From Massilia mucilaginosa (GTDB lineage Bacteria; Pseudomonadota; Gammaproteobacteria; Burkholderiales; Burkholderiaceae_D), in assembly GCF_011682145.1 (NCBI RefSeq), contig NZ_WHJH01000005.1, forward strand, positions 62,001-126,000: 64,000 nt of DNA, read 5' to 3'. The notes beneath the pieces are model-generated. The model was not told where the DNA came from. It did not search any database and saw only the letters and a list, made by a program, of their open reading frames with translations. Shown here piece after piece: positions 11,622 through 63,515 of the stretch. The stretch's first letter is position 1; every line of letters starts with the position of its first letter. A program made the translations under genes and the position numbers.

Positions 11622-12854
11622 TCAGCGTCCGATGCCGAACGGATCGTCGATCGAATGGGCCGGTTCGGTGAACCACGTCGGCCCCGCAGCCGTCATATAG
11701 AAGTGATCTTCAAGGCGCACCCCGAATTCGCCCGGAATGCAGATCATCGGCTCGTTCGAAAAGCACATGCCCACATCGAGCGGCGTGCTGTCGCTGCCGA
11801 CCAGGTAGGGCCACTCGTGGATATCCATGCCGATGCCATGGCCGGTGCGGTGCGGCAGGCCTGGCAGCTTGTAGCCGGGACCGAAGCCGTTCGATTCGAG
11901 CGAGGCGCGCGCGGCGGCGTCCACCTCGCGGCAAGGCACGCCCAGTTGCGCCGCCGCGAACGCGGCCAGCTGCGCCGCCTTCTCGGCATTCCACACGAAG
12001 CGCTGGCGCTCGCTGATCTCGCCGAACACGTAGGTGCGCGTGATGTCCGAAATGTAGCCATGCACCTGGCAGCCGGTGTCGATCAGGACCACGTCGCCCT
12101 GTTTCAGGGTCTGCGCGTAGCTGACGCCGTGCGGATAGGCGGTCGCCTCGCCGAACAGCACGATGCAAAAATACGAACCGGGCGCGCCGACCTTGCGGTG
12201 CGCGCGCGCGATGAAGTCGCTCACCTCCACCGTGGTGATCCCCTCGTGCAGGATGCTGGCGGCGGCCTTGTGCACTTCCAGCGTCATGTCCTTCACACGC
12301 TGCATCAGCGCGATTTCGGCGGGCGACTTGCGCGCGCGGCAGAACGCCGTGACGCTCTTGGCGTTTTCGAGCGCGTAGCCGGCGGCCAGCGGGCCGATGC
12401 CGTCGGCGATGAAGAACGCCGCGCTCTCGCAAATGCCGATGCGCGGCGCTCTGGCCGCATTCGGCTTGACGCCCATGCGCGCCAGCACGTCGATGAACAG
12501 CTGGTAAGGGCTCTCGTGCTCTTCCCAGCAATTGACCTTGCCCTTGACGAGCATGAAGTCGGTCAGCGAGCCCTCTTCGAACACCGGTGCGATGTATTCG
12601 AGCGCGCCCACGGCCGGCAAAATGGCGCCGACCATGCGTTCGCTGGCATACCACTTGGTGCCCGTGAAGTAGCGCATGTTGGTACCCGCGTTGAGGAACA
12701 CCGCGCCGATGCCCTGTTCCAGCATGAAGGCCTGGGCGCGCGCGATGCGCTCTTTGTGTTCTTGCTTGCCGATCGGGGCCATGCCGCCGGTCATGTCGGA
12801 CAAGGCGGCCAGCGCCTCGTCCATGCTCTTGCCGCCAATGTTCAATGCGTTCAT
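11622..12854 (-). CDS. M24 family metallopeptidase (Xaa-Pro dipeptidase/creatinase-like)
   Basis: A 410-residue pita-bread-fold metallohydrolase: creatinase-like N-terminal domain (FLNAGTNMRYFTGTKW) and an M24 catalytic domain. The dinuclear metal ligands can be traced: two Asp in DTGCQVHGYISDITR, His in HRTGHGIGMDIHEWP, Glu in NEPMICIPGEFG and Glu in VRLEDHFYM. Predicted cytoplasmic, with no signal peptide. Its ATG overlaps the dctM stop by 4 nt, so it is co-translated with TRAP permeases. It probably processes the compound those permeases import, perhaps a prolyl dipeptide or a creatine/ectoine-like amide; the exact substrate cannot be read from sequence. Confidence 0.85.
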   Translation of the reverse strand: MNALNIGGKSMDEALAALSDMTGGMAPIGKQEHKERIARAQAFMLEQGIGAVFLNAGTNMRYFTGTKWYASERMVGAILPAVGALEYIAPVFEEGSLTDFMLVKGKVNCWEEHESPYQLFIDVLARMGVKPNAARAPRIGICESAAFFIADGIGPLAAGYALENAKSVTAFCRARKSPAEIALMQRVKDMTLEVHKAAASILHEGITTVEVSDFIARAHRKVGAPGSYFCIVLFGEATAYPHGVSYAQTLKQGDVVLIDTGCQVHGYISDITRTYVFGEISERQRFVWNAEKAAQLAAFAAAQLGVPCREVDAAARASLESNGFGPGYKLPGLPHRTGHGIGMDIHEWPYLVGSDSTPLDVGMCFSNEPMICIPGEFGVRLEDHFYMTAAGPTWFTEPAHSIDDPFGIGR

Positions 12855-14593
12855 TTCTTTTTCGGTTCCGTGTCAGTATCGGTCGAGAAGTTCAGTTCCG
12901 GCGTGGTGTCGTCGTCCTTCTTGGCAGCGTCGCCGCCCTTCGTTTTGGCGTCGGCGTCGCTGTCGGTCGAGAAGTTCAGATCCGGGGTGCTGTCGTCGTC
13001 CGCCTTGCCGGCCTCGCTTGCCGGGGCATCGATTTTCAGTTCGATCTGTTCGTCCATGTCGACCTTCTTCTCGACCGAGACCAGGTGCGGGAAGGCGATG
13101 ATCAGGCTGACCATGATCACCTGGATCACCACGAACGGGATCGCGCCCCAGTAAATGTCGGAGGTCTTGACCTCTTTCGGCGCCACCGATCTCAAATAGA
13201 ACAGCGCGAATCCGAACGGCGGATGCATGAAGGAAGTCTGCATGTTCACGCCCAGCAGCACCCCGAACCAGACCAGGTCGATCCCCAGCTTGTTGGCCAC
13301 CGGGCCGACCAGCGGCACCAGGATGAAGGCCAGCTCGAAGAAGTCGAGGAAGAAGGCCAGCACGAAGAACATGACGTTGACCACGATCAGGAAGCCGGTC
13401 ACCCCGCCCGGAAGGCTGGTCAGCAGGTGCTCGACCCACAGGTCGCCGTCCACGCCGCGGAACACCAGCGCGAACACGGTCGAGCCGATCAGGATGAACA
13501 TGACGAAGCACGACAGGCGCGTGGTCGAATTCATCGCTTGCTTGAGCAGGCTCCAGGACAGGCGGCCATTGAGCATGGCCAGAATGATCGCGCCCAGCGC
13601 GCCCATGCCGCCGCCTTCGGTCGGAGTGGCGATGCCGACGAAAATCGTGCCCAGCACCAGGAAGATCAGCGCCAGCGGCGGCACCAGCACGAACACCACC
13701 TTTTCGGCCATGCGCGAGAGCAGGCCGAGTTTCAGGTGGCGGTTGGCCAGGGCGAACGAAAAGGTCAGCGCAATGCCGGCCGCAGCGGCATAAATACCCA
13801 GTTCGTCGCTTTTCAGTTGCGGGTGGCTGGCGCCCCAGACCAGGGCGAAAGCATACGACACGGCGACCGTGCCGAGCACCAGGAACAGCAGCGACATTGC
13901 GCCGCTGTCGCCGTTCGGCTCGCGCAGGTTGCGCGCTTCGAGCGGCAGCGCCGGCACGTGGTGCGGCTTGAAGATCGACAGCGCCAGCACGTAGCCGGCG
14001 TACATCGCGGTGAGCATCAGGCCGGGGATGAAAGCGGCCTTGTACATGTCGCCCACCGATTTGCCCAGCTGGTCGGCCATCACGATCAGCACCAGCGAGG
14101 GCGGGATGATCTGCGCCAGCGTGCCGGAGGCGGCGATCACGCCCGAGGCGAGGCGCTTGTCGTACCCGTAGCGCAGCATCACCGGCAGCGAAATGAGGCC
14201 CATCGAAATCACCGACGCCGCCACCACGCCGGTGGTTGCGGCCAGCAGCGCGCCGACGAAAATGACCGCATAGGCCACGCCGCCGCGAATCGGCCCGAAT
14301 AGCTGGCCAATGGTGTCGAGCAGGTCCTCCGCCATCCCCGACCTTTCCAGGATCAATCCCATGAAGGTAAAGAAGGGGATCGCCAGCAGGTTCTCGCTGC
14401 CCATGATGCCGAAGATCCGGTTGGGCAGCGCCTGCAGCAGTTCGGGTTTGAGCAAACCGAGCTCGATGCCGACCAGGCCGAAAAACAGGCCGTTGGCGGC
14501 CAGTGAAAATGCGACCGGAAAACCGGACAGCAAGAAGATGACCAGCGCCCCAAACATGATGGGCGCCAGGTTGGCGATGATGAATTGTTCCAT
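12851..14593 (-). CDS. dctM: TRAP transporter large permease (DctM) with acidic twin-motif C-terminal tail
   Basis: The multi-spanning DctM subunit of a tripartite ATP-independent periplasmic transporter. Typical segments include LSGFPVAFSLAANGLFFG at the N-terminus, GATTGVVAASVISMG-type and SGTLAQIIPPSLVLIVMADQ motifs. Ordinary DctM proteins are about 425 or, in the larger subgroup, about 500-530 residues; this one is 580. The extra about 75 residues after the last membrane span (from about 505) are hydrophilic and hold two copies of a 14-residue acidic motif containing TPDLNFSTD and TPELNFSTD, encoded by two 42-bp repeats (12876-12917 and 12960-13001; 37 of 42 bases equal). The small subunit is upstream, an M24 peptidase downstream. 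No binding protein (DctP) is nearby. Confidence 0.9.
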   Translation of the reverse strand: MEQFIIANLAPIMFGALVIFLLSGFPVAFSLAANGLFFGLVGIELGLLKPELLQALPNRIFGIMGSENLLAIPFFTFMGLILERSGMAEDLLDTIGQLFGPIRGGVAYAVIFVGALLAATTGVVAASVISMGLISLPVMLRYGYDKRLASGVIAASGTLAQIIPPSLVLIVMADQLGKSVGDMYKAAFIPGLMLTAMYAGYVLALSIFKPHHVPALPLEARNLREPNGDSGAMSLLFLVLGTVAVSYAFALVWGASHPQLKSDELGIYAAAAGIALTFSFALANRHLKLGLLSRMAEKVVFVLVPPLALIFLVLGTIFVGIATPTEGGGMGALGAIILAMLNGRLSWSLLKQAMNSTTRLSCFVMFILIGSTVFALVFRGVDGDLWVEHLLTSLPGGVTGFLIVVNVMFFVLAFFLDFFELAFILVPLVGPVANKLGIDLVWFGVLLGVNMQTSFMHPPFGFALFYLRSVAPKEVKTSDIYWGAIPFVVIQVIMVSLIIAFPHLVSVEKKVDMDEQIELKIDAPASEAGKADDDSTPDLNFSTDSDADAKTKGGDAAKKDDDTTPELNFSTDTDTEPKKK

Positions 14594-14627
14594 GTGTCCC
14601 TGACCGAAGTGGCTGTGTGCTTGACTG

Positions 14628-15218
14628 CTAACCGAGATTGTTGGCGGCTTTGATCGCGTCGATCTCGTCCTGCGGCGTGGTGGCCTGCTTGGTGAACGAG
14701 CTGGCGTCGATGCGGCCGGCCAAAAACGCGATGCGCTTGATGATTTCGGACAGGCCCTGCAGGATGATCAGCGCAAAGGCGACCGGAATGAGCAGTTTGG
14801 CGGGCCAGACGATCAGGCCACCGGCGTTGCTCGACATTTCGGCGCTGACGATCGACAGATGGGCAAAGGGGATGCCGTACCACAGGATCAGCAGCGAGAC
14901 GGGCATCAGGAACAGCAAGAAGCCGAACAGTTCGATCCAGACCTGGGTGCGCCGCGAAAAGCGTCCGACGATCACGTCGATGCGCACATGCTCGTCGCGT
15001 TTGAGCGTGTAGGCCGAGGCCAGCATGAACATGGCGCCGTACAGGTACCACTGGATTTCGAGCCAGGCATTGGAACTGATATTGAAGATGTAGCGGATCA
15101 GGGCATTGCCGGCGCAGATGAGGACCGCGGCCAGCAAGGCCCAGCTGACGGCGTTGGCGATCTTCTCATTGAGAGTATCGATCGCGCGCGACAGCGGGAC
15201 GAAAAGTGACATGAGCAT
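14628..15218 (-). CDS. dctQ: TRAP transporter small permease (DctQ)
   Basis: A 196-residue four-helix DctQ-type membrane subunit that pairs with DctM. Visible family segments are NAWLEIQWYLYGAMFMLASA and DEHVRIDVIVGRFSRRTQVW, followed by two hydrophobic spans. The start at 15218 (ATG-CTC-ATG) is preferred: GGAG lies 11 nt upstream, and the longer frame to 15269 adds an unlikely N-terminus. The gene is 34 nt upstream of dctM and starts the dctQ-dctM-M24 operon. The periplasmic solute receptor must be encoded elsewhere, or the pair borrows one. Confidence 0.85.
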   Translation of the reverse strand: MLMSLFVPLSRAIDTLNEKIANAVSWALLAAVLICAGNALIRYIFNISSNAWLEIQWYLYGAMFMLASAYTLKRDEHVRIDVIVGRFSRRTQVWIELFGFLLFLMPVSLLILWYGIPFAHLSIVSAEMSSNAGGLIVWPAKLLIPVAFALIILQGLSEIIKRIAFLAGRIDASSFTKQATTPQDEIDAIKAANNLG

Positions 15219-15271
15219 GGTGCTGGTATCTCCGGTAGTTTCAAACAAAAAGTTCAAAAACAAGCACAAGC

Positions 15272-15291
15272 GCCGGCGTCTTGCGCGCCGG
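15272..15291 (-). terminator. Weak terminator candidate after argH
   Basis: CCGGCG and CGCCGG arms close a short hairpin about 30 nt past the argH stop. On the minus strand it is followed by a T-rich tract (CTTGTGCTTGTTTTTG). The stem is short, so read-through into dctQ is possible. Confidence 0.35.
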
Positions 15292-15321
15292 TCGGCTTAA
15301 GTACAGCTCACTGCTGGTGCG

Positions 15322-16719
15322 CTACCCCGCCAGCTGGGCGCGCACGCGGGCGATCGCCGCGCGCACCTGGCGCGGCGCGGTGCCGCCCACATGGTCGCGC
15401 GCCGCCACCGAGCCTTCCAGGGTCAGTACCGCGAACACATCGTCGCCGATCAGGCTTGAGAACGCGCGCAGCTGGTCGAGCGACATCTCCGCCAGGTCGT
15501 ATTCGAGGTCGTCGCAGGCACGCACGGCGCGCGCCACGGCTTCGTGGGCGTCGCGGAACGGCAGGCCTTTCTTGACCAGGTAGTCGGCCAGGTCGGTCGC
15601 GGTGGCGTAGCCCTGCAGGGCGGCGGCGCGCATGTTGTCCGGCTTGACCGTGATCCCGCCGGCCATGTCGGCGAAGATGCGCAGGGTGTCGACCAGGGTG
15701 TCGACGGTGTCGAACAGCGGCTCCTTGTCTTCCTGGTTATCCTTGTTGTAGGCCAGCGGCTGGCCTTTCATCAGGGTCAGGAGGCCGGTCAGGTGGCCGT
15801 ACACGCGGCCGGTTTTACCGCGCGCCAGTTCCGGCACATCCGGGTTTTTCTTTTGCGGCATGATCGAGGAGCCGGTGCAGAAGCGGTCGGCGATGTCGAT
15901 GAAACCGACCCGTGGGCTCATCCAGATCACCAGTTCTTCCGACATGCGCGAGATGTGCGTCATGATCAGGGCGCCGGCGGCGCAGAACTCGATCGCGAAA
16001 TCGCGGTCCGAGACGGCGTCGAGCGAATTGTGGCAAACGTCGTCGAAGCCGAGCGTGCGGGCCACCCGTTCGCGGTCGATCGGGAAGGTGGTGCCGGCCA
16101 GCGCGGCGGCGCCCAGCGGCAGGCGGTTGACGCGCTTGCGGGCGTCCTGCATGCGTTCGACGTCGCGCCCGAACATCTCGACATAGGCCAGCATGTGGTG
16201 GCCGAAGGTGATCGGCTGGGCCACCTGCATGTGGGTAAAACCGGGCATGATGGTGTCGGCGTTCTGTTCCGCCAGATCGGTGAGGGCGGCGCGCAGGCCG
16301 TTCAGCAGCACCACGATATCGTCGATGGCGGCGCGTACGTACAGGCGGATGTCGGTGGCCACCTGGTCGTTGCGCGAGCGTCCCGTGTGCAGGCGCTTGC
16401 CGGCGTCGCCAACCAGTTCGGTCAGGCGTTTTTCGATATTCAGGTGGACGTCTTCCAGGTCGAGCAGCCATTCGAAGCTGCCGGCCTCGATTTCGCCCTT
16501 GATCTGGGCCATGCCGCGTTCGATCCCGGCGCGGTCTTCGGCGCTGATGATCCGCTGGGCGGCCAGCATTTCGGCGTGCGCGAGCGAACCCTGTATATCG
16601 AACAGGGCCAGGCGTTTATCGAAAAAGACGGAAGCGGTGTAGCGTTTGACGAGGTCGGAGACGGGTTCGGAAAAGCGCGCCGACCAGGCTTCGCCCTTCT
16701 TTGAAAGTTGTGCGGTCAT
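15322..16719 (-). CDS. argH: Argininosuccinate lyase
   Basis: A 465-residue member of the fumarase/aspartase superfamily that splits argininosuccinate into arginine and fumarate, the final step of arginine synthesis. The superfamily signature [12 protein letters not shown] with the catalytic Ser is present near residue 280. Other ArgH-typical segments are [19 protein letters not shown] and [19 protein letters not shown], and DEDVHLNIE-like [17 protein letters not shown] near residue 90. Length is usual (455-470). It has AGGAA 8-9 nt before the ATG and its own promoter-like sequence. It appears monocistronic. Confidence 0.97.
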
Positions 16720-17418: not shown

Positions 17419-18804
17419 TCAACTCCAATTCGTCAGCGCCGGCGGAATCAGCAACAGCAGCGCCATCACAAAATACGCCAGTTGCAGCGGCACCATCCAC
17501 TTGGCCCAGGTAATCCAGGGAATGCGCGCCAGTGCCAGCACGCCCACCGTCACGCCCGAGGTCGGAATCATCGGCAAGGTCAGCTCGCCCAGCTGGAACG
17601 CCAGCACGGCGGTCTGGCGCGAAATGCCCACCAGGTCGGCCAGCGGCGCCATGATCGGCATGGTCAGCGCGGCCTGCCCGGTGCCGGAGTGGATGAAGAA
17701 GTTAATCACCGTCTGGATAATGAACATCTTTTGCGCCGCGAACACCGGATTGGCCGACTGCACCAGCGGCACCAGCGAATGGAGCATGGTGTCGATGATT
17801 TTGGCATCCTGCGCCAGGATCATGGTGCCGCGCGCGAGCGCGATCACCAGCGCGGTGCCGACCAGGTCGCGCGCGCCGTGCAAAAAGGCCGCCACGAATT
17901 CGTCGCTGTCGAGCCGCCCGATGATGCCGACCACGATCGCCATCACCATGAACAGGGCGGCGATCTCGTTGATGTACCAGCCGAAGTGGATCACGCCGAC
18001 CACCATGGCCGTCATGAAGCCGACGAACAGCAGCAGCACCACGGCGTGGGTGGTGGTCATGCCGGTCAGGTTGGTGAGGGCGGCGCTGCTTTCCTTGCGC
18101 TTTTCGATATCGAGCGCGTACGACGGGCTGCGGGTCGGGTCTTTCTTGATGCGCGCCGCGTACCACATCAGGAACGCGATGGTCAGCGCGGTGGCCACGA
18201 ACCAGACGATCAGGCGGTAGCCTATGCCCGAAAACATCTCGATCCCGGCGATATTCTGCGCCACGCCGACATTGAACGGATTTAAGAAGGCGGCCGCGAA
18301 GCCCACCTGGGCGCTCAGGAACGGAATCGACACGCCGATGATCGAGTCGTAGCCAAGGGCGAGCGCCAGCGGCACGAAAATGAGCACGAACGGAATCGAC
18401 TCCTCGCTCATGCCGAAGGTGGCCCCGCCCAGCGAGAAGATGGTCACGAACACCGGAATGAGCATGGCCCGCACGAAGCGCGAGTGCGTGTGCGCGCGCG
18501 CCACGCTGCGGATCATGGCGTCGAGCGCCTCGGTCTTTTGCAGCACCGCGAACGCGCCGCCGACAATCAGCACGAAGCCGATGATCTGGGCCGCTTCCTT
18601 GAAGCCTTTGATGGGCGCCATCATCAGCGCCACGAAGCCCTGCGGATTACTCTGCACGTAATGGAAGGAGCCGGGATCGATACGCGGTTTGCCATCGACC
18701 ATGACGGTATCGTACTGGCCGCCCGGCACCAGCCAGGTGGCCACGGCGATCATCGCCAGGATCAGGAACAGCAGGACGAAGGTATTGGGGATGCGCAGTT
18801 TCAT
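17419..18804 (-). CDS. YfcC/DcuC-family membrane carrier
   Basis: A 461-residue polytopic membrane protein with about 12 hydrophobic spans, matching the YfcC-like branch of the DcuC (C4-dicarboxylate carrier/arginine-type) superfamily: IPNTFVLLFLILAMIAVATW, VPGGQYDTV, GATFGMSEESIPFVLIFVPL, and FFIHSGTGQAALTMPIMAPL near residue 370. Members are usually annotated as basic amino acid or short-chain compound transporters; substrate is unproven. Its ATG overlaps the stop of the AstE-like hydrolase by 4 nt, so the two are co-translated. With the divergent cyanophycinase this suggests uptake of arginine or Asp-Arg dipeptides. Confidence 0.82.
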   Translation of the reverse strand: MKLRIPNTFVLLFLILAMIAVATWLVPGGQYDTVMVDGKPRIDPGSFHYVQSNPQGFVALMMAPIKGFKEAAQIIGFVLIVGGAFAVLQKTEALDAMIRSVARAHTHSRFVRAMLIPVFVTIFSLGGATFGMSEESIPFVLIFVPLALALGYDSIIGVSIPFLSAQVGFAAAFLNPFNVGVAQNIAGIEMFSGIGYRLIVWFVATALTIAFLMWYAARIKKDPTRSPSYALDIEKRKESSAALTNLTGMTTTHAVVLLLFVGFMTAMVVGVIHFGWYINEIAALFMVMAIVVGIIGRLDSDEFVAAFLHGARDLVGTALVIALARGTMILAQDAKIIDTMLHSLVPLVQSANPVFAAQKMFIIQTVINFFIHSGTGQAALTMPIMAPLADLVGISRQTAVLAFQLGELTLPMIPTSGVTVGVLALARIPWITWAKWMVPLQLAYFVMALLLLIPPALTNWS

Positions 18805-19919
18805 TGGCTGAGCAGCTTTCCGGCGCGGTAAGCCACGGGTCCCGCGATCTTACCGACCGCCATGCCGCGCAGCAGATGGCGGTGCGCGGTGCGGGCGAAG
18901 AACACGCCGTCGACGCTGCAGCGCAGGGTGGTGGTGCGTCCGCTGACCGGGTCGACCAGGTCGGCGATGGCGTCGCCGGCCACCACCTTCTCGCCCAGGT
19001 TCTTGAGGAACACCAGCACGCCGGCATGCGGCGCGGCGATCGGCTCCACGCCTTCGAGCGGGGTCGGGGCGCACAGGGGCGTGGGCAGGTCCGTCAGCGC
19101 CATATCGAGCACGCCGGCATGCGCCAAAAATTGCTGCAGGGCGCGCGCGTCGCCCCCGGCCAGTTCGTAGTTCACATCGCGCTCGCCGCGCAGCTCCACG
19201 GTGGTCGACAGGCAGGCCGGCGGAATCGGAAAGGCCGGCCCGAAGTGCGCCGCCAGGTCCCACCACAGGCGCGAACACGCTTCGTCGAACGGTTCGCCGC
19301 CGGCCTCCAGGGCCAGCAGCACGCTGTGCGCCTGCATCAGCGCCGCCAGCGGCGCCACCGCGTCCGCCAGCGGGGTGCCCGCATAAATATGCAGCACCGC
19401 TTCGTTATCGCAGTGCAGGTCGAGCACGATGTCGGCGTCGATCGCCATTCCGAGCAGGATTTTCTTGAGCGTGTCGGCGTCGGTTTTCGGCTCCCAGGCG
19501 GCGACCGAGTCGCGCGCGTGGGCGCGGATCAGGGCCACGTTGGCACCGGCGTCCGGGCCGAGTAAACCTGCCAGCGAGGTTTTCAGGTCCTCGGCCACGT
19601 GCTTGTAGGCGCGGTTGAAATTGGTTCCGGTCGAGAGGTCGAAGCGGCCGAACGGCGCGCCGTGGATGGCCTGCGCCAGCCCGAGCGGATTGGCCGCCGG
19701 GACCAGGATGATCTCGCCGCGGATCTTGCCGGCCGCGTCCAGCAGCTGCAATTGCTTGCGCAGGAACTGCGCCACCAGCATGGGCGGCACTTCGTCGGCG
19801 TGCAGCGCGGCCTGGATATACACCTTCTTGCCGGTGCCCGGCGCGCCGAAATGGAAACTGGCCAGTTGCGAGGACATGCTGCTGTCCTCGAGGGAGATGC
19901 GATGGGTGTTTGCTTGCAT
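18801..19919 (-). CDS. AstE/aspartoacylase-like zinc hydrolase (M14-type), possible cyanophycin-dipeptide hydrolase
   Basis: A 372-residue cytoplasmic protein of the succinylglutamate desuccinylase/aspartoacylase group. Probable zinc ligands are His and Glu of ALHADEVPPMLVAQFL (residues about 38-41) and His in DIVLDLHCDNE; Glu in TTVELRGERDV is the likely general base. A C-terminal beta domain with the biotinyl-like AAPHAGVLVFLKNLGEKV follows, as in this family. It is not a clear AstE: no arginine-succinyltransferase genes are near. It precedes and overlaps a YfcC-like carrier and is divergent from a secreted cyanophycinase, so hydrolysis of beta-Asp-Arg is the attractive role; related zinc enzymes (CphZ) have, from memory, been described for that reaction. 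Confidence 0.8.
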   Translation of the reverse strand: MQANTHRISLEDSSMSSQLASFHFGAPGTGKKVYIQAALHADEVPPMLVAQFLRKQLQLLDAAGKIRGEIILVPAANPLGLAQAIHGAPFGRFDLSTGTNFNRAYKHVAEDLKTSLAGLLGPDAGANVALIRAHARDSVAAWEPKTDADTLKKILLGMAIDADIVLDLHCDNEAVLHIYAGTPLADAVAPLAALMQAHSVLLALEAGGEPFDEACSRLWWDLAAHFGPAFPIPPACLSTTVELRGERDVNYELAGGDARALQQFLAHAGVLDMALTDLPTPLCAPTPLEGVEPIAAPHAGVLVFLKNLGEKVVAGDAIADLVDPVSGRTTTLRCSVDGVFFARTAHRHLLRGMAVGKIAGPVAYRAGKLLSQ

Positions 19920-20044
19920 GATCAGGACCGTGAAATGAAGTCAGCCGGAAGTGTGGCATAAAAAACCGCCGCCGCGCCGGGTCCATTTCTGGAATACGAC
20001 ATATTATTTCTGAGCGGGGTATCATCTTGCCTGCACATAACATC

Positions 20045-20078
20045 GGCTGCGCGCTGGCCTGTACTGGCCCGCGCAGCC
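20045..20078. promoter_or_regulatory. Inverted repeat in the cyanophycinase 5' region
   Basis: GGCTGCGCG and CGCGCAGCC form perfect 9-bp arms with a 16-nt centre that itself contains CTGGCC twice. It lies 29 nt before the cyanophycinase ATG in the 187-nt gap shared with the divergent hydrolase gene. It could be an mRNA hairpin or an operator; nothing else decides which. Confidence 0.35.
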
Positions 20079-20106
20079 CGACCTACCGAATAAGGAAGAA
20101 CCACCG

Positions 20107-21357
20107 ATGCTGAACCTGGCCCGCCGATACTTACAGTTCCTGTTCCTCTTCCTGCTGGCGGCGGGTCAGGCGCAGGCGGCGGCAGCGGCCGCAGCGGCCG
20201 CGCCCACGGTGCCGCCGGGCGGGCCGAAAGGCTCGCTGGTGATCATCGGCGGCGCGCTGCGCGGCGAGAACGCGGCGGTGTGGAAGCGCATCGTCGAACT
20301 GGCGGGCGGCCCGGGCGCGCGCATCGCCGTCTTCGGCTCGGCCTCGGCCAGCCCGGACGTCGCGGGCAAGAACAATATCGAGGTGCTCAACTCCTACGGC
20401 GCCGACGCCTTTTTCGTTCCGGTGGCGGTCAAGCTGAAAGACACCGACTACCGCATCGCGGCCAACGACCAGGCGCTGGCGGACGCGGTGCGCCACGCCG
20501 ACGGCGCCTATTTCGTCGGCGGCAACCAGGCCCGCATCACCGAAGCGCTGCGCAAGAAAGACGGCAGCAGCACCCGCGTGCTCGACGCCTTGTGGGCCAT
20601 GTACCGTAACGGCGGCGTCATCGCCGGCACCAGCGCGGGGGCGGCGATCATGAGCGAGACCATGTTCTACGATGCCAGCTCGGTGCTCTCGACCCTCAAG
20701 CGCGGCGTGGCCGATGGCATGGAACTGTCGCCGGGCCTGGGCTTCGTCGGCAAGGATGTCTTCGTGGACCAGCACTTGCTGGTGCGCGGCCGCTTCGGGC
20801 GCATGCTGCCGGCCATGCTGGCCAAGGGCTACAAGATGGGACTGGGGATCGACGAGAATACCTCGATGATCATCCATGGCAACCGCGATGTGGAAGTACT
20901 CGGCTACAAGGGCGCGCTGATGATCGATTTGAGCGGCGCCACGTTCACGCCGGGCGACTTCAACGTCAGTAACGCCAAACTCAGTTACCTCGATAACGGC
21001 GACCGCTTCAATCTGCAGAATGGCGTATTTACGCCGTCGATCGAAAAGCTGGCCAACAAGCTCGATTCGTCCAGGCCGTATTATCGCGGTCCGCTGTTCT
21101 TTGCCGATATTCTCGGTAACACGACGGTGGTGGACCTGATGCACCGCCTGATCGACAGCGACCAGACCGACGCCATCGGCCTGACCCTGGGCAGCCCGCG
21201 CGACCTGCAGCCGGAACTCGGCTTCGAGTTCCGCTTCAGCCGCACCAAGGAAAGCATCGGCTACATGTCGGCCATTTCGGATATGTACTCGGTGTTTAAC
21301 ATCCGCCTCGACGTGCTGCCGATCCTGATCCGCCAGCCGCTGTACCAGTACAAGTAA
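20107..21357 (+). CDS. Secreted cyanophycinase (peptidase S51)
   Basis: A 416-residue cyanophycinase-like serine peptidase with an N-terminal signal peptide (hydrophobic FLFLFLLAAGQAQA, cleavage near the Ala run), so it works outside the cytoplasm. The S51 fold is shown by SLVIIGGALRGEN, DGAYFVGGNQARITEAL and the nucleophile elbow VIAGTSAGAAIMSE, with Ser as catalytic residue. LGIDENTSMIIHGNRDVEV is typical of CphB/CphE. The enzyme cuts cyanophycin (Arg-branched polyaspartate) into beta-Asp-Arg dipeptides. AGGAAG lies 8 nt before the ATG. About 100 C-terminal residues lie beyond the catalytic core, as in extracellular forms. No cyanophycin synthetase is in the window, so foreign polymer use is more likely than turnover. 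Confidence 0.88.
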   Translation: MLNLARRYLQFLFLFLLAAGQAQAAAAAAAAAPTVPPGGPKGSLVIIGGALRGENAAVWKRIVELAGGPGARIAVFGSASASPDVAGKNNIEVLNSYGADAFFVPVAVKLKDTDYRIAANDQALADAVRHADGAYFVGGNQARITEALRKKDGSSTRVLDALWAMYRNGGVIAGTSAGAAIMSETMFYDASSVLSTLKRGVADGMELSPGLGFVGKDVFVDQHLLVRGRFGRMLPAMLAKGYKMGLGIDENTSMIIHGNRDVEVLGYKGALMIDLSGATFTPGDFNVSNAKLSYLDNGDRFNLQNGVFTPSIEKLANKLDSSRPYYRGPLFFADILGNTTVVDLMHRLIDSDQTDAIGLTLGSPRDLQPELGFEFRFSRTKESIGYMSAISDMYSVFNIRLDVLPILIRQPLYQYK

Positions 21358-25228: not shown

Positions 25229-25336
25229 CTTGGCTGGGATTTCAAAGGAAGCGACATGCTACCACGCAGGCGCCGGCCGCAACCACCGCGCGCAGGTTTA
25301 CAATGCGGGACGATCCACGCTTGCAAGGAAACCGCC

Positions 25337-26821
25337 ATGCCGCTGTCCCCCGTCCCGCTGTTCCCCGTGCCGCTGTCCCTCGTGCCGCTGTCCCTCGTGC
25401 GTTTCATGCGCCGCCTCGCCGGCTTGCTGGCGCTGGCCGCCGCCGCCGCCGCCGCCCACGCGCAGGCCCAGCCGCCGGCCACCGTGCGCGTCGACTACCA
25501 GCACAGCGGCAATGCCCTGTCGGACCAATACGCCTTGGAGCGCGTGGTGATCGAAGCGCTGCCGTGGGCCGGCGACCTGTCGCAAAACCTCGACACCACC
25601 AACCGTGGCCAGAACATGGTCGAAGTGGTCGACGCCAAAACCGGCGACCTGCTGTATTCGCGCGGGTTCTCCACCATTTTCGGCGAATGGCGCACCACCG
25701 AGGAAGCCAACCGGATCAGCCGCGGTTTCCAGGAATCGGTGCGCTTTCCGGCCTTCGGCAAACCGGTCAGGGTGCGGGTGCTCAAGCGCGACGAGCGCAA
25801 TCAGTTTTCGGTCGCGTGGAGTGTCGAGGTGGACCCGGATGCGCCGGACGTGGTGCGCAAGCAGGCGCCCGCGCCGGCCAAACCGATCCCGATCCGCGTC
25901 AGCGGGCCATCCCCGGCCAAGGTCGACCTGCTGGTCATGGGCGACGGCTACACCGCCGGCGAGATGAAAAAATTCGAGGCCGATGCGCGCCGCCTGGCCG
26001 ATCACCTGTTTACGGTCTCGCCCTTCAAGGAGCGCGCGGGCGACTTCAATGTGTGGGCGATTGCGGTGCCGACCCGGGAAAGCGGCGTGTCGCGCCCGTC
26101 GACCGGCGCGCACAAGGCCTCGCCACTGGGCACGCGCTACGACATCTTCGGCAGCGAGCGTTACGTGCTCACGCTGGATAACCGCGCGCTGCGCGAGATC
26201 GCCCAGCATGCGCCCTACGAGTTCATCGAAATCCTGGTCAATAACGATACCTACGGCGGCGGCGGCATCTTCGGCCAGTTCAGCACCGCGGCGGCCGGCA
26301 ACGACTGGGCCAATTACCTGTTCGTGCACGAATTCGGCCACCACTTCGCCGGCCTGGCCGACGAGTACTACACTTCACCCGTGGCTTACCAGTCCGGTTC
26401 CGCGCGCATGGAACCGTGGGAGCCGAATGTGACGGCGCTGCGCGACCCGTCAAAGCTCAAATGGCAGCGCCACGTCAAGGCCGGCACGCCGCTGCCGACC
26501 GCCTGGCCCAAGGCGCAGTACGAACAATACGCGCGCGCCTATCAAAAACGCCGCGCCGCGCTGCGTGCCGCCAACCGGCCCGAGTCCGAGATGAGCGCGC
26601 TGTTCCGCGAAGACTTGACCCACACCAATACCCTGTTCGCCAAGGCCACCCACCGGCATGATGTGGGCGCCTTCGAAGGGGCCAATTACGAGGCCACCGG
26701 CTATTACCGGTCGGAAATGCAGTGTTTGATGTTCGACCGAAGTGAAAGATTCTGTAACGTGTGTAACGACGGCATCACCACGATCATCGATTTGTATGCG
26801 AAGAAGGGCGCGGGAAAATAG
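25337..26821 (+). CDS. Peptidase M64 family (IgA-peptidase-like) secreted metallopeptidase
   Basis: A 494-residue protein with an N-terminal signal region (MRRLAGLLALAAAAAAAHAQA, begins at residue 24) and an M64 zinc-peptidase domain. The motif HEFGHHFAGLADEYY starts at His331; His331, Glu332 and His335 are the zinc site and general base. Earlier family segments are DLLVMGDGYTAGEMKKF and LVNNDTYGGGGIFGQF. A C-terminal pair of Cys (RFCNVCNDGI) may form a disulfide. ATG 25337 has AAGGAA 6 nt upstream. The first 23 residues contain four 5-residue repeats from a 15-bp tandem repeat and precede the usual signal peptide, so ATG 25406 is an alternative start, though without a ribosome site. Confidence 0.85.
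   Translation: MPLSPVPLFPVPLSLVPLSLVRFMRRLAGLLALAAAAAAAHAQAQPPATVRVDYQHSGNALSDQYALERVVIEALPWAGDLSQNLDTTNRGQNMVEVVDAKTGDLLYSRGFSTIFGEWRTTEEANRISRGFQESVRFPAFGKPVRVRVLKRDERNQFSVAWSVEVDPDAPDVVRKQAPAPAKPIPIRVSGPSPAKVDLLVMGDGYTAGEMKKFEADARRLADHLFTVSPFKERAGDFNVWAIAVPTRESGVSRPSTGAHKASPLGTRYDIFGSERYVLTLDNRALREIAQHAPYEFIEILVNNDTYGGGGIFGQFSTAAAGNDWANYLFVHEFGHHFAGLADEYYTSPVAYQSGSARMEPWEPNVTALRDPSKLKWQRHVKAGTPLPTAWPKAQYEQYARAYQKRRAALRAANRPESEMSALFREDLTHTNTLFAKATHRHDVGAFEGANYEATGYYRSEMQCLMFDRSERFCNVCNDGITTIIDLYAKKGAGK
25340..25399. repeat. Four 15-bp tandem repeats at the M64 gene start
   Basis: Units CCGCTGTCCCCCGTC, CCGCTGTTCCCCGTG and two identical CCGCTGTCCCTCGTG follow the start codon directly. They encode PLSPV, PLFPV, PLSLV, PLSLV. 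The repeats keep the frame, so copy-number change would lengthen or shorten the signal-peptide n-region. Confidence 0.85.
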
Positions 26822-62717: not shown

Positions 62718-63515
62718 ATGAGCGCAGCGCCGATCCATATCGAGGGCGTCGACAAGGTCTTCGGCAGCGCCGGGCGCGAGCTCGTCGCGCTGCGCGGCAT
62801 CAGCCTGACCATCCCGGCCGGGCAATTCACCTGCCTGCTGGGGCCGTCGGGCTGCGGCAAGTCGACCCTGCTCAACGCCGTGGCCGGGTTTGCGCCGCCC
62901 ACGCGCGGGTCGATCCGCACCGGCGCGCGCGAAGTGACCGGGCCGGGGCCGGAGCGCGGCATGGTGTTCCAGGAGTACGCGCTGTTCCCGTGGATGACGG
63001 TCGAGCAGAACATCGCCTTCGGCCTGCACATCAAGGGGCTTGGCAAGGCGGCCATCGCGGCGACCATCGGCGCGCTGCTCGAGACGCTGGCGCTGACCGA
63101 TTTTCGCCAGCGCTATCCGAAGGACCTGTCGGGCGGGATGCGCCAGCGCGTGGCCATTGCGCGCGTGCTGGCGCTGGACTCGCCGATCATGCTGATGGAC
63201 GAGCCGTTCGGCGCGCTCGACGCCCTGACGCGGCGCAATCTGCAGGACGAATTGCTGCGCATCTGGGCGGACACCGGCAAGACCATCCTGTTCGTCACGC
63301 ACAGCATCGAAGAAGCGATCTACCTGGCCGACCGGATCGTGGTGATGACCTACCGGCCCGGCACGGTCAAGCGCGATGTGGCGGTCGATCTGGCGCGCCC
63401 GCGCGACCCCTCCGCGCCCGCCTTCAATGCCCTCAAGCGCGAACTGGGCCTGCTGGTGATGGAGGAACAGCAGCGCCACCACAACGACGAGTTGCGCATG
63501 GCGGCCGGCGATTAG
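62718..63515 (+). CDS. ABC transporter ATP-binding protein (SsuB/TauB type)
   Basis: A 265-residue ATPase. Walker A LLGPSGCGKSTLLNAVAGF (near residue 43), Q-loop in MVFQEYALFPWMTVEQN, signature LSGGMRQRVAIARVLALD, Walker B IMLMDEPFGALDALTRRNLQ and switch His in LFVTHSIEEAIYLADRI. The closing segment VVMTYRPGTVKRDVAVDL is typical of nitrate/sulfonate importers. Last gene of the three-gene operon. Confidence 0.94.
   Translation: MSAAPIHIEGVDKVFGSAGRELVALRGISLTIPAGQFTCLLGPSGCGKSTLLNAVAGFAPPTRGSIRTGAREVTGPGPERGMVFQEYALFPWMTVEQNIAFGLHIKGLGKAAIAATIGALLETLALTDFRQRYPKDLSGGMRQRVAIARVLALDSPIMLMDEPFGALDALTRRNLQDELLRIWADTGKTILFVTHSIEEAIYLADRIVVMTYRPGTVKRDVAVDLARPRDPSAPAFNALKRELGLLVMEEQQRHHNDELRMAAGD

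Follow-up and report, generated by a model that had tools for sequence, protein, structure and literature searches.

A DcuC/YfcC-type carrier paired with a CphZ-type dipeptidase is a candidate importer of the cyanophycin dipeptide in Massilia and its relatives

A three-gene locus of Massilia mucilaginosa, a soil or water bacterium, probably serves the scavenging of cyanophycin, a storage polymer rich in nitrogen, in which the polymer would be cut outside the cell and the dipeptide beta-Asp-Arg imported by a DcuC/YfcC-type carrier and split inside. The locus lies in a stretch of 64,000 nucleotides (NZ_WHJH01000005.1, positions 62,001 to 126,000; hereafter the window). On its minus strand, a CphZ-type beta-Asp-Arg dipeptidase of the zinc M14/AstE-AspA family (18801..19919, 372 amino acids) is followed by a DcuC/YfcC-type secondary carrier, the proposed beta-Asp-Arg importer (17419..18804, 461 amino acids, PF03606), the stop of the hydrolase and the start of the carrier overlapping by 4 nt (ATGA). 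Across a divergent control region of 187 nt (19920..20106), an apparently secreted, CphE-like cyanophycinase of family S51 is read from the plus strand (20107..21357, 416 amino acids, TIGR02069). An earlier note on this DNA had described three genes, a 187-nt shared region and a 4-nt coupling; the three open reading frames (ORFs) are intact at the same coordinates, and the ATGA overlap agrees with that description. In the pathway we propose, cyanophycin released by other cells would be cut outside the cell by the secreted cyanophycinase, and the elevator-type carrier would take the dipeptide through the inner membrane, with a proton or sodium gradient as the probable driving force. In the cytosol CphZ, whose translation is coupled to that of the carrier, would split it to Asp and Arg, the Arg then being available to the ast pathway, whose genes lie elsewhere in the genome. 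In the majority of related loci a TonB receptor would provide the outer-membrane step and an RpiR-type protein the regulation, with the inner-membrane step taken by either an aot-like ATP-binding cassette (ABC) transporter or the carrier.

Gene linkage argues strongly for the carrier as the importer. CphZ was found in 17/17 genomes of the genus and the carrier in 14/17. In the 17 genus loci that we fetched from 16 other genomes, excluding that of the window, CphE was present in 17/17 and a carrier stood beside CphZ in 13/17, one of these (L043, a poor assembly) with the carrier in broken frames. Five loci with a wide gap between CphZ and CphE (L033, L035, L037, L038 and L039) hold there an RpiR-type regulator and a TonB receptor of about 910 amino acids, the domains being assigned by Pfam for L035 only and the L033 receptor consisting of two ORFs; L043 has a similar gap and stands outside these five. 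We also scanned GTDB species genomes with an alignment built from CphZ-linked carriers (A2), which gave 113 relatives, and kept the best 80, 66–96% identical. With neighbours called by tblastn (E 1e-10, at least 30% of the query; some stretches end at contig ends), CphZ was found in 78/80 loci, CphE in 69/80, a TonB receptor in 62/80 and RpiR in 60/80. Carrier and CphZ shared one strand in all 78 pairs, with a median of 19.5 nt between match ends, and 74 of the 78 lay within 60 nt. These loci overlap partly with the genus set and the relatives are not independent, so 78/80 does not amount to 78 events; the pairing is nevertheless beyond chance, and the conserved linkage on which the earlier note had staked its reading is borne out. 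Hosts include Massilia, Janthinobacterium, Undibacterium, Duganella, Rugamonas, Paucibacter and Roseateles; the metagenome-assembled genomes of Myxococcales and Ignavibacteria among them may be binning errors. Arrangement varies in a few cases. Four Duganella-type loci (L159, L162, L176 and L184) have the carrier before CphZ and no CphE in the sequence examined, L184 has CphZ on either side of the carrier, and L146 and L149 each show two neighbouring matches to the cyanophycinase gene.

A comparison across the order shows the carrier standing where other CphZ loci have ABC genes. In an order-level sample, CphZ occurred in 35/250 genomes, the window's included. The carrier had no match in any of the further CphZ loci that we examined in this order (40 loci, L074–L113, one just 4.4 kb; tblastn 1e-3), and homologues of the substrate-binding protein (SBP), ATPase and permease were found in 29, 26 and 26 of them, respectively (the SBP and ATPase of L100 only were confirmed with Pfam). 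In six of these loci (L093, L094, L098, L100, L103 and L106) CphE is also present, 40–46% identical to that of the window, as is a TonB receptor, and three of the six have RpiR. L100, L103 and L106 hold receptor, RpiR, CphE and CphZ together with aot-like ABC genes in place of the carrier; their receptors are 72–73% identical to that of L035, their RpiR proteins 50–52% identical to that of L037, and their CphZ is sister to carrier-linked CphZ (SH-aLRT 97 in a quick tree without bootstrap). The shared receptor, RpiR and CphE and the sister CphZ thus suggest that the module was kept and its inner-membrane transporter exchanged, most simply in one event.

The hydrolase belongs with CphZ. Pfam AstE_AspA_cat scores 59.1 bits, and the best solved relatives (phmmer against the PDB) are 8ein (E 1.8e-76, over residues 12–361) and 8eip (1.2e-75), both taken here to be CphZ structures; their PDB name is only 'Succinylglutamate desuccinylase'. 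The printed alignments of 8ein and 8eip differ at one position, Glu in one and Ala in the other, and Glu242 of the window protein aligns there. Together with His40, Glu43 and His169 it is invariant in nine genus sequences; the three residues from His40 to His169 are likely zinc ligands, and Glu242 would be the catalytic Glu. Lacking a signal-like N-terminus (peak hydropathy 0.57), the enzyme is probably cytosolic. E. coli AstE gave no BLASTP match to it at E<=10, and in a quick tree without bootstrap (built without matches that contained a stop or aligned over fewer than 300 residues) it falls within CphZ homologues of both the ABC-linked and the carrier-linked kind, so the grouping with AstE that would have told against the earlier note did not appear. 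Two labels in that tree are wrong: L074, marked ABC-linked, is an orphan CphZ, and L034, marked carrier-linked, has no carrier. A true AstE was rejected as an identity for the hydrolase on the 8ein/8eip match and the missing BLASTP similarity. In the text of PMC10206079 available to us, enzymes of cyanophycin clusters annotated as M14 or AstE/aspartoacylase form a 'cyanophycin dipeptide hydrolase' family.

The S51 protein is a cyanophycinase, as the earlier note had named it. It scores 40.2 bits with Pfam Peptidase_S51, passes the TIGR02069 cyanophycinase cut-off (149.7 bits vs 126.6) and matches the solved cyanophycinases 7uqv, 3en0 and 7uqw. The residues given for the Synechocystis enzyme in the accessible part of PMC3235067 (Gln101, Asp172, Gln173, Arg178, Arg180, Arg183 and the catalytic Ser132) all have equivalents in the alignment, namely Gln141, Asp221, Gln222, Arg227, Arg229, Arg232 and Ser176, and His223 also matches that paper's cyanophycinase residue list. 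A generic S51 dipeptidase E was discarded as a candidate on the TIGR02069 cut-off and these conserved residues. Judged by hydropathy alone, the N-terminus resembles that of a secreted protein: a hydrophobic stretch follows RR, and the mean over 11 residues peaks at 2.5.

The carrier is a DcuC family member (PF03606, 349.8 bits vs a gathering threshold of 23.1) and the sole one found in the genome. Of its description as YfcC/DcuC-type, the DcuC part stands; with the YfcC model NF008611 it reaches 377.7 bits, under the NCBI equivalog cut-off of 500, and in the tree its clade is separate from the one with E. coli YfcC. The carrier residues H372, K359, E407 and T419 are specific to this clade. By sequence it had no relative in the PDB (best E 0.13). 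An AlphaFold2 model (predicted local distance difference test score 87.8) gave Foldseek matches to AbgT- and INDY-type carriers, AbgT ranking first. E. coli AbgT imports p-aminobenzoyl-glutamate, and its gene adjoins that of the corresponding hydrolase. The AbgABT system follows the same logic with a related fold, a carrier and a cytosolic amidohydrolase for a dipeptide-like substrate, but differs in carrier family (AbgT), substrate and hydrolase.

Carriers of a second, distant clade adjoin another dipeptidase, IadA, in Gammaproteobacteria. The carrier of locus L243 is a YfcC by the NCBI cut-off (668.8 vs 500) and adjoins IadA (495.9 vs 331.25), a TonB receptor and an S51 gene (112.2 vs 126.6, below the cut-off). 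In the order of L243, 67/148 genomes match its carrier at E<=0.001, many weakly and partially; identity reaches >=48% at 26 places, and we examined 25 (L243 and 24 others; G663 and two G755 fragments were left out). IadA and S51 genes were both present in 16/25 loci, 14 of the 16 with a TonB receptor match, and IadA alone in 1/25. Fourteen aligned S51 proteins carry GGDQ, G(T/S)SAG and DTH-x3-R-x-R-x2-R, with DTH instead of DQH in all 14, as in the extracellular CphEal, which has Thr where the Synechocystis enzyme has Gln173 (PMC3235067, accessible part). The carrier tree holds 64 rows picked by hand, carriers with a selected ORF outside 420–560 amino acids having been dropped beforehand (L207 and L204 were restored, L303 was left out), and recovers the window clade as one clade (100/100). 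That all cyanophycin-linked carriers, a group named after the loci were seen, form one clade was rejected by the approximately unbiased test (p 4e-36; L287 was treated as linked, L211 and L212 as unlinked). These neighbourhoods lead us to infer import of beta-Asp-Arg by two carrier clades distant from each other. Whether the DcuC/YfcC family as a whole holds isoaspartyl dipeptide importers in at least two distant clades is, to our judgement, evenly balanced: one would work with CphZ in Burkholderiales, where it replaces ABC genes, and the other with IadA in Gammaproteobacteria, possibly as an old YfcC trait, which could make such an importer the ancestor of E. coli YfcC.

The source genome (G000; 7.70 Mb, 416 contigs) contains a single CphZ-type gene and a single PF03606 carrier, along with two matches to the cyanophycinase profile. 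Apart from the window locus, contig C44 (L044, 6651-13678) carries in a row cphA (TIGR02068, 924.8 vs 850), a cytosolic-type cphB (TIGR02069, 258.3 vs 126.6), methyltransferase-like and haem-oxygenase-like genes and an IaaA-like gene, the last an Asparaginase_2 member that reaches 117 bits with the beta-aspartyl-peptidase model, far below its cut-off of 567. Contig C110 has two AstA genes with AruC- and AstD-like neighbours (tblastn). The claim that no synthetase or arginine-succinyl genes are nearby therefore holds for the window, where queries at E 1e-8 found no match to CphA, IaaA, AstA, RpiR or the locus-type TonB receptor, although both pathways are encoded on other contigs. The same queries gave only weak AstD-like and ABC ATPase matches in the window, far from the locus (ABC ATPase at 62787), and no ABC genes adjoin CphZ there as in the aot operon. 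Absence of cphA1, a trait of genomes in Table 4 of PMC10206079 as far as that source was accessible, does not hold here, cphA lying on another contig.

Several observations weigh against the scavenging reading or parts of it. The TonB receptor and RpiR gene usual in related loci are not in the window, whose own nearby TonB receptor scores as siderophore type. Elsewhere in the genome, the closest match to the locus receptor is about 50% identical and lies on contig C122 (L251, 1416-4580), and no cyanophycin gene was seen beside it in 14 kb of ORFs judged by eye. The receptors of three ABC loci are as far from the L035 receptor (49–50%) as the C122 receptor is, so relocation of the latter is compatible with the distances; either a displaced partner or a paralogue would fit. 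Three genus genomes (G001, G005 and G008) have no carrier genome-wide, and two of the three keep CphZ and CphE apparently intact, so the carrier is not the sole possible route. The G008 locus, with CphZ broken (L042, 7709-8498), the carrier gone and CphE matching over its length, is perhaps a decaying module. Two of the 80 carriers (L211 and L212) have no CphZ in the sequence examined, L211 having SBP and permease genes nearby. The window cyanophycinase keeps Gln222, as intracellular CphB does, rather than the Thr of CphEal, so it is an apparently secreted cyanophycinase that may belong to a lineage other than that of Pseudomonas CphE. In Gammaproteobacteria, the S51 proteins score under the cyanophycinase cut-off, and both IadA and S51 are missing from 8/25 carrier loci. 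S51 places of at least 60 bits with an ORF of at least 430 amino acids lie within 8 kb of a carrier in 17/18 cases (0/13 for those passing the cut-off, all under 290 amino acids), which favours the pairing, but the 60-bit limit was chosen after the table was seen and the figure without it is 17/23; large-ORF S51 genes below 60 bits at G644, G687 (629002), G707, G767 and G669 have no listed carrier within 8 kb.

Of the alternatives, the one we take most seriously, while still considering it improbable, is that the carrier exports a product, exchanging dipeptide or arginine for ornithine or venting surplus arginine or aspartate, and that another system imports the dipeptide. The NCBI family name 'putative basic amino acid antiporter YfcC' fits this, and two distant relatives (L248 and L241) lie beside arcB/arcC-like or argG/argH-like genes, judged by eye from N-termini. 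Streptococcal ArcD, of the same Pfam family, exchanges arginine and ornithine, and amino acid exchange is therefore possible for the carrier, a further point against import. Against it, aot-like SBP or permease matches occur in 0/78 CphZ-bearing carrier loci (an ABC ATPase alone, 25–36% identical, in 7), the carrier occupies the position of the ABC genes in sister loci, and no CphZ or ABC match lies in the 19 kb examined around the ast genes of C110.

A role in turnover of the cell's own cyanophycin, or in general recycling of isoaspartyl peptides, seems very unlikely to us. The genome does encode CphA, a cytosolic CphB and an IaaA-like enzyme, but the separate C44 cluster already provides cytosolic breakdown, the window S51 enzyme has, by hydropathy, a secretion-type N-terminus, and a TonB receptor is added in 62/80 related loci. 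Least probable of all is that the locus has nothing to do with cyanophycin and that the M14-type hydrolase cleaves some other N-acyl or isopeptide compound. Three of the eight gammaproteobacterial loci without IadA and S51 (L293, L296 and L297) have relatives of E. coli YfcC adjoining AstE/AspA-type hydrolases not close to CphZ, a different carrier-hydrolase pairing that speaks for this reading; the 8ein/8eip match, the cyanophycinase linkage in 69/80 loci and the dissimilarity to E. coli AstE in BLASTP argue against it here.

Other features of the region accompany the locus. The 187-nt gap, aligned across seven close loci (the window included), has a conserved block around ATACGACATATTATTT; a regulator site there would be conjectural. 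Downstream of the cyanophycinase gene, an M64 peptidase gene (25256..26821, plus strand; PF09471, 401.3 bits) is possibly associated by synteny: a gene of this IgA-peptidase family lies near cphE in 15/17 fetched genus loci (L027–L043) and overlaps it in L034, L036 and L042. The neighbourhood at window 11622-16719 is conserved as well: argH is near the locus in 14/17 fetched genus loci, where a TRAP transporter and an M24 peptidase frequently accompany it, and in 30/80 named carrier loci. ORFs outside the window come from a home-made script that misses some genes.

Parts of this system have precedents. CphZ and the Pseudomonas aot operon were reportedly described by Sharon et al. in PNAS in 2023; that operon likewise encodes a CphZ-type dipeptidase with a transporter, whereas the window has a carrier in place of ABC genes, an added secreted cyanophycinase and no ast genes at the locus. 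As far as the sources were accessible, scavenging loci and the dipeptide hydrolase family (PMC10206079), extracellular CphE (PMC3235067) and a TonB transporter beside cyanophycinase in Citromicrobium (PMC3400609) are already published. The cyanophycin utilization locus of Ben Hania et al. 2017, as reported in the accessible text of PMC10206079, shows the same clustering of cyanophycinase, isoaspartyl dipeptidase and transporter for scavenging, the latter two roles being predicted ones in the window. It differs in having iadA, and its title names a Bacteroidetes clade; the window instead has CphZ and a DcuC/YfcC-type carrier in a genome with cphA. In Citromicrobium the TonB receptor lies next to cyanophycinase, as in most relatives of the window locus but not in the window, and the part of PMC3400609 available to us mentions neither carrier nor CphZ. 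Our literature search, with coverage that lacked bioRxiv and held few subscription papers, found no link between YfcC/DcuC and cyanophycin among the matches listed. The new part is thus the proposed substrate of the carrier, the enzyme families being already known.

With this proposal, a poorly defined transporter group would gain a concrete, testable substrate. The spread of these loci suggests that cyanophycin feeding is common across Massilia, Janthinobacterium, Undibacterium and their relatives, and M. mucilaginosa would be one organism able both to store its own cyanophycin and to scavenge that of others. The loci together would describe a nutrient route with an exchangeable inner-membrane step, ABC transporter or carrier, in which receptor, regulator, depolymerase and dipeptidase stay constant.

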